A stretch of 54,832 bases of DNA from Candidatus Paceibacter sp. Lineage in GTDB: Bacteria > Patescibacteriota > Patescibacteriia > Magasanikbacterales > UBA922. Shown here one piece after another: positions 5,401 through 6,720 of the stretch; within the stretch, counting starts at the first letter, position 1; each line of letters begins with the position of its first letter. Under the pieces are notes generated by a model. That model was not told where the DNA came from, made no database searches, and saw only the letters and a program-made list of their open reading frames with translations. The position numbers and the translations under genes are program-made. Where the stretch lies: assembly GCA_020725175.1 (NCBI GenBank), contig DYFM01000010.1:1-54832 (forward strand), read 5' to 3'.

Positions 5401-6541
5401 TTTTCAAAACAGCTCTCAACCCATCATCATTTTTAATTGCTGGGATAAAATCACCCTTTTCACCACATCCAATTTGCTTGTAGAGAGTTTTAAAAATTCT
5501 CAACTTTTTGTTTTTTTCACTTTGCTGTTGATTGTACCTATTAATTAAATTATTCGCATTACCAATATTTAAATTGTACTTTTCAATTTCTCTTTGTGAT
5601 AAACAATTTGTAAAATAACCAATTTCAAAAATATCTGCAATAATTTTTTCCAATTCAACTTTCTCACCTTTTTGATTTTTTCCAATTGTTTCAATTCCGT
5701 TTTCTTTTAAAAAATCATATACTTTTAAATATTCATCTTTTCTTTTCTGAAATTCCAAAACATTGTCCGCAAATTTTGGCAAATTTTCATCGATAATTCG
5801 TGAAGCAACCGCTGTGGCTTTCTCTTCCGTTGAATAGTAATTTTCCCGATTTTGATTAAAACCGGTTAGATACGTAAAAAAGCCCTCAAACACCCCCTTT
5901 GAATCAGCGGTTCCTAAAGCTTTCTCTAAGTCTTCTTTTTTTACTTCTTTGCCTTCGTGGGTTTTTAAATTCATCACCACAAACTCCTCAATTTTTGCTT
6001 TAACGTATTTCAAAATTCCAACTTCCGTAAGAATCTTAAAACTGTCTTCTTTTAAAATAGGTTTGCCTTTTTTGTCGCTCCCGACTTTGCTCTTAAACTT
6101 TTCTCCTTCTGCCTTATAAATATCAGAAAACGCAGCCCGCAAATTTTTTTCTTTCGTTTCTAATGATTTTTCTATCTTTTTCTTCTCTTCCCTATCTTGC
6201 TCATTTCTTAAGTTTTTATAAACAGAAAAGTAATCCTCAAAAGAGAGGTGTTTTGCTTCATCACTCTCCAAACTTTCAGTAATAAACTCCTCATGTAATT
6301 TATCAAATACCGGCTTTAATATTTGATAGGCGTCTTCAATTTCTTTATCACGAATAAAGTTAGGATTTGCTTTTTCGATATTCTCGCGAGTCTTCCCAAC
6401 CGGTCTCAACTCAAACCGCAAGGTCTTCGATAATGCATACTTCCTCGTAAACTGATCAAAAACTGATTTGTTACTAAGCACCTCGGCTTGTTTTTTTTCA
6501 GTAGACACAGAAACAATAGATGATGACATATCGATATGCAT
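2498..6541 (-). CDS. cas12a: Type V-A effector nuclease Cas12a (Cpf1)
   Basis: 1347 aa; RuvC-I [13 protein letters not shown], RuvC-II [27 protein letters not shown], RuvC-III [31 protein letters not shown] motif; catalytic D/E/D present. Confidence 0.98.
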   Translation of the reverse strand: [1347 protein letters not shown]

Positions 6542-6567
6542 TAATAATAAAAAAGATAATAAAATAC

Positions 6568-6638
6568 AAAAAAGGACGACGGTGGTCGCCCAATAGATAT
6601 GCTTACCAAACGGTTAAGCTGTATTGGAACCGTCGCCC
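6568..6638 (-). terminator. Terminator hairpin with U-tract inside the cas12a 5' leader
   Basis: Minus-strand GGGCGACGGT (6638-6629) pairs with ACCGTCGTCC (6583-6574), inner CCAATA/TATTGG and GCTTAACC/GGTAAGC stems, followed by TTTTTT. Confidence 0.8.
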
Positions 6639-6692
6639 GTCTTTATAGCTTAAAGGGGCGATAGCATATCTTATATTTTGGGCGACAAAATA

Positions 6693-6720
6693 AGTATACA
6701 CCCTACAAAAATAAAATCAA
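6693..6720 (-). promoter_or_regulatory. Sigma70-type promoter for the cas12a leader
   Basis: Minus strand TTGATT (6720-6715), 16 nt, TATACT (6698-6693); predicted start near 6686. Confidence 0.7.

Follow-up and report, generated by a model that had tools for sequence, protein, structure and literature searches.

The cas12a gene of a small-genome bacterium is preceded by a leader (minus strand, 6686-6568 of the window, the whole 54,832-nt stretch of DNA analyzed) which exists in two alternative states. An antiterminator, made up by helices P1 and P2 and a three-way junction, excludes an intrinsic terminator located upstream of the gene. The mutual exclusivity of the two folds, proposed in a preliminary description of this DNA, is confirmed; both are conserved and feature compensatory changes in independent relatives. 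The element is very probably a cis-acting transcription attenuator. On the basis of sequence comparisons, the cas12a leader is a member of a predicted family of similar leaders, found upstream of genes for large serine recombinases in the same phylum.

The putatively controlled gene, cas12a (2498-6541, minus strand), encodes a protein of 1347 aa, identified by tblastn and by its placement in a tree with other Cas12a proteins. The cas4, cas1 and cas2 genes, named from sequence and order, reside downstream in the same orientation (712-2496, minus strand), next to a type V-A CRISPR array of nine 36-nt repeats ending AATTTCTACTTTTGTAGAT (15-550, minus strand). The leader is a single copy sequence, no second copy being found in the genome.

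All the pairings listed in the preliminary description were found in the minus-strand RNA. The 5' strand of P1, GUCGCCCAA (6686-6678), begins at the predicted +1 and pairs in the antiterminator with UUGGGCGAC (6593-6585). The 5' strand of P2, AGAUAUGCU (6671-6663), is fully complementary to AGCAUAUCU (6603-6595), and compensatory changes in this helix were observed among cas12a leaders. The antiterminator additionally holds a P4 hairpin and P3, in which UCGCCC (6661-6656) pairs with residues 6638-6633, masking the 5' strand of the terminator; a compensatory change from C-G to U-A was found in P3. Strand A, GGGCGACGGU (6638-6629), may thus serve either as the 3' strand of P3 or as the 5' strand of the terminator, which it forms with strand T', ACCGUCGUCC (6583-6574), in a stem of 10 pairs, one of which is G-U. 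The stem is followed by a U6 tract (6573-6568), ending 26 nt before the cas12a ATG. The inner part of this long terminator hairpin (6627-6590) is made up by CCAAUA (6627-6622) paired to UAUUGG (6595-6590), enclosing a smaller hairpin (6619-6615 with 6605-6601). A second, shorter terminator, overlooked in the preliminary description, can be formed by residues 6591-6585 and 6580-6574, its 5' strand being the GGGCGAC sequence included in the 3' strand of P1. The first bases of the leader, GUCGCCC (6686-6680), are fully complementary both to this GGGCGAC and to that found at 6638-6632.

The element precedes cas12a in six further genomes of the same class (G077, G065, G098, G182, G255 and G016; the G182 contig begins inside the element), and was found at 7 of the 11 class-level Cas12a loci with a readable 5' end. 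A Bro-N gene is interposed between leader and cas12a in G016. This gene (1629-2474 of locus L134) is of the antirepressor type, and the leader heads here a unit of two genes, one of them a phage-like regulator. At locus L009 (G105) only the 3' hairpin and the U tract are kept just before cas12a (1450-1488), a naturally occurring variant in which the antiterminator half is deleted. The element is missing at L008, which encodes the nearest Cas12a relative found (59-64% identity), and is therefore not obligatory for cas12a; nor does any Cas12a locus read in the other classes of this phylum carry it. Its distribution in the Cas12a tree is patchy, requires at least 5 changes, and splits the pairs window/L008, G182/G243 and G255/G580. 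The 3' segments of the leaders are up to 91% identical, Cas12a proteins mostly about 30% (up to 51%). Sequence data point either to repeated loss of a leader kept under strong constraint, or to its exchange independently of the gene.

Weaker matches to R1, a covariance model built from cas12a leaders, were detected away from cas12a (E 1e-7 to 1e-3 per genome) in the same phylum, and have the same anatomy. Six out of seven are located closely upstream of a large serine recombinase gene, and in the seventh (L163) such a gene is found about 0.9 kb downstream. R2, a full-length antiterminator model derived from four recombinase leaders only, matched 21 of 111 genomes of one order, and 16 of 362 genomes across the phylum. 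All the 15 loci fetched in the phylum set adjoin recombinase genes, as do, by tblastn, all those fetched in the order set except L157, where a resolvase-like frame was recognized by eye. R2 recovers cas12a leaders at full length (E 4e-5 in G065, 1.2e-4 in the window, 3e-3 in G016, 5e-3 in G255), window residues 6561-6687 being aligned to model positions 1-130, and found no match at 12 Cas12a loci lacking the full element. Among recombinase loci picked by Pfam domain the element was found in 9 out of 30, and therefore marks a subset of them. The sequence similarity of the cas12a and recombinase subtypes is modest; we infer that they share descent.

Recombinase genes carrying the attenuator (L139, L140, L142, L147, L154, L155 and others) often follow a rolling-circle Rep gene of the G2P/ORF2 type, and these loci make up, as judged from sequence, a putative mobile-element family in the phylum. 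No match to this family was found in phage, plasmid or viral-contig searches, nor were relatives of the Rep protein found in viral contigs. The element was similarly missing from phage and plasmid records in a distant search, and two precise patterns of it gave 0 matches in viral contigs. A loose pattern gave 93 matches, regarded as chance occurrences because the pattern fixes 14 bases only. Neither Rep nor recombinase genes were found near cas12a loci.

Shuffles, slid alignments and loci lacking the element served as background. Since MAFFT misaligns the 5' half of divergent full-length leaders, leaders were aligned by covariance models, or within a close subset. In 37 aligned loci 94.9% of antiterminator positions are paired, 35 out of 39 pairs are doubly changed, and the score is 0.641 (0.04-0.10 when slid); in a separate phylum set of 15 loci the score is 0.744 (at most 0.11 when slid, over both sets), both alignments being fitted to the antiterminator, and hence biased towards this fold. 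The excluded terminator stem, the counterpart of the helix formed by T', is 95.5% paired in the same 37-locus alignment, which is made up by the recombinase subtype, and double changes are present. G-U cells are far more frequent than A-C cells (100 against 19, and 54 against 4), which argues for selection on the sense RNA. In the seven cas12a leaders 96.9% of the cells of the terminator fold are paired, and 6 pairs are doubly changed (0-1 in slid controls). Antiterminator helices, analyzed in three cas12a leaders, are 100% paired, with 3 doubly changed pairs. The six outer P1 pairs are invariant among the cas12a leaders tested, and the covariation of P1 consequently depends on the recombinase subtype. 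The hairpins to be looked for in relatives, according to the preliminary description, are present at six further cas12a loci, and compensatory changes were found in both folds.

The sigma-70-type promoter predicted upstream of the leader (TTGATT-16-TATACT; 6720-6693, minus strand; predicted start at 6686) does not stand out in the window taken alone, 52 promoter-like sites being found over 16 kb as against 44 in shuffles. The comparison of leaders argues in its favor, as the -10 box keeps its distance from P1. In 39 of 49 related leaders 5-6 nt separate the end of the box from the first base of the model, and promoters score 9.2 of 12, as against 3.8 in control windows. At least 4 U are found in the first 6 nt after the terminator stem in 47 out of 50 related leaders. 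The leader thus exhibits the features of attenuators recognizable in sequence: an upstream promoter, predicted from sequence only, with a start preceding the fold; an intrinsic terminator, made up by stem and U tract, ahead of the gene; an alternative fold which excludes the terminator, both folds being conserved.

The leader folds at -39.4 kcal/mol, as against a mean of -25.7 for shuffled sequences (z -4.3), and beats all of 200 dinucleotide shuffles. When folds are forced, the energies calculated for the window leader are -39.4 for the antiterminator, -36.6 for the short terminator, and -32.3 for the long terminator. In related leaders the antiterminator is favored by a median of 11 kcal/mol, a lead suggesting that formation of the terminator may be rare unless triggered. 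Switching was predicted by equilibrium folding, not by kinetics. When prefixes of increasing length are folded, strand A is predicted to be hidden at every length, by the 5' strand first and by P3 later, and P1, P2 and P3 to be complete before T' is made. Masking of the 5' strand raises the predicted probability of the terminator from 0 to 0.95 (long) or 1.0 (short). Both results point to read-through as the predicted default state, and to termination when something occupies or displaces the 5' half, or when this half is missing. The claim that cas12a is gated by leader folding is supported, as the two exclusive folds are conserved, the predicted element sits between a positioned promoter and the gene, and the modeled fold flips to the terminator upon masking. 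Conditional termination ahead of cas12a would require these features.

In the mechanism we propose, RNA polymerase would start at 6686, so that the first bases of the message would be the 5' strand of P1. The nascent leader could then fold as the antiterminator (P1, P2, P3 and P4), P3 concealing strand A and P1 the GGGCGAC needed for the short terminator, and transcription would proceed into cas12a. Should the 5' strand be occupied, displaced or missing, strand A (or GGGCGAC) would pair with T', the terminator hairpin followed by U6 would form, and transcription would halt just upstream of the gene. Since read-through is the predicted default, the trigger would be expected to occupy or block the 5' half, or to remodel the three-way junction. 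Candidates are an RNA-binding protein, a small RNA, a ligand, or an altered speed of transcription. From the modeled folds we infer both that termination would take place at the leader, and that the default would lie in the direction of read-through.

A narrower form of the attenuator explanation, quite possible though somewhat short of probable, is that the leader is a specific sensor, either a riboswitch or an attenuator responding to a protein or RNA, in which one factor reads the junction (strand A, P3 and P4) and controls both Cas12a and the recombinases. Consistent with this, the sequence of the junction and terminator region is much better conserved than that of the outer stems in the recombinase subtype, and cas12a-type leaders reach 91% identity over proteins about 30% identical. 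The double pairing of strand A and T' however accounts in part for their conservation, and neither a ligand-like pocket nor an Rfam match was found. It is rather unlikely that the leader is instead a constitutive, partly leaky terminator coupled to a strong 5' fold, which senses nothing and lowers the expression of cas12a and recombinase genes, or makes it bursty. No large conserved unpaired pocket is evident by eye in the alignments, the balance of the two folds could be set at any value, and the antiterminator is dominant at equilibrium, in line with such a device; yet compensatory changes preserve both folds across great distances, and a precisely kept antiterminator, with its 5' strand at +1, would be superfluous if the terminator were weak and fixed.

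Antisense attenuation is typical of mobile elements, and in the rep attenuators of pT181 and pIP501 a mobile-element gene is controlled by alternative leader folding and a terminator, antisense RNA being required. The cas12a leader shares with these replicons both the refolding and the terminator, and a transcript of the opposite strand binding the 5' half might force termination, as the masking predictions imply. This type of control is nevertheless improbable here, as no convincing antisense promoter was found (antisense scores just beyond the U tract are 6.5, lower than the 9.2 of 12 of sense promoters though higher than the 3.8 of sense-strand control windows), no U-run terminator was recognized on the antisense strand of the window, and the sequence of P1 is free to vary between loci. 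Ribosome-mediated attenuation through a leader peptide is more doubtful still. A mini-ORF (AUG CUA UCG CCC CUU UAA) lies inside P2/P3 in the window, and a similar frame is found in G016, but its AUG, which belongs to P2, does not occur in G065, G255 and G098, the frame found in G077 is unrelated, no ribosome-binding site is present, and recombinase leaders read have no such frame; the candidate was rejected because the frame is not conserved. Least probable of all is a hairpin acting as DNA (replication origin, transposon or attachment site), suggested by the frequent vicinity of related leaders to rolling-circle Rep genes in mobile elements and opposed by the sense-strand G-U bias, the constant orientation relative to the gene in fetched loci, the positioned promoter and U tract, and the cas12a loci which have no Rep or recombinase gene nearby.

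Control of the leader by crRNAs or spacers was also considered, and rejected because repeat duplex energies are at the level of shuffled sequences and spacers match at most at 59%. No Cas12a handle stem was found outside the array.

The tracrRNA-based autorepression of Cas9 loci is a guide-directed repression, and differs from the system described here, as the cas12a leader has no repeat-, spacer- or crRNA-like match. The two are alike in that the expression of the effector is, or here would be, controlled by an RNA linked to a class 2 CRISPR locus (PMC11417352). Riboswitches and attenuators relying on intrinsic terminators (PMC2965389, PMC2258182) similarly have a leader between promoter and gene, exclusive terminator and antiterminator folds, and a P1-like closing stem, the 3' strand of which is common to the terminator. 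The cas12a leader is distinguished by P1 starting at +1, by having no known ligand, factor or Rfam family, and by the genes under its putative control, cas12a and serine recombinases. The closest idea is that of RCd22, or abiF motif RNA (RF03085), of Clostridioides difficile, a structured leader bearing a terminator which gates an anti-phage gene, and has been proposed to be riboswitch-like (PMC12373285). The cas12a leader differs in having two alternative covarying folds, precedes another defense gene, and does not match RF03085.

Riboswitches, attenuators and terminators are not mentioned in a 2023 review of CRISPR regulation, a literature search found no comparable element, and no Rfam 15 family, RF03085 included, is matched by the window leader or related loci. 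The leader might tentatively be regarded as a new class of sensing RNA, in which Cas12a and large serine recombinases are gated by one and the same cue, and the leader, 120 nt long, passes from one cas12a gene to another separately from the protein, a view we hold as possible rather than likely. To our knowledge, the regulation of type V-A effectors in native hosts has been little described. A conserved two-state leader makes it directly testable, and may show how Cas12a immunity is tuned. The architecture common to cas12a and mobile-element integrases suggests that both answer to the same cue, or that they share a regulatory part which can be transferred, and provides a new RNA family for small-genome bacteria, which are genetically hard to study.

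Additional hairpins flank the cas genes. A 19-nt inverted repeat, which encloses a GCGC hairpin, resides between cas2 and the CRISPR array (561-628). Another hairpin (6745-6780), terminator-like and bearing long T runs, separates the cas12a promoter from the upstream ORF (6862-7128), at a boundary where the G+C content falls, and may insulate the cas12a unit.
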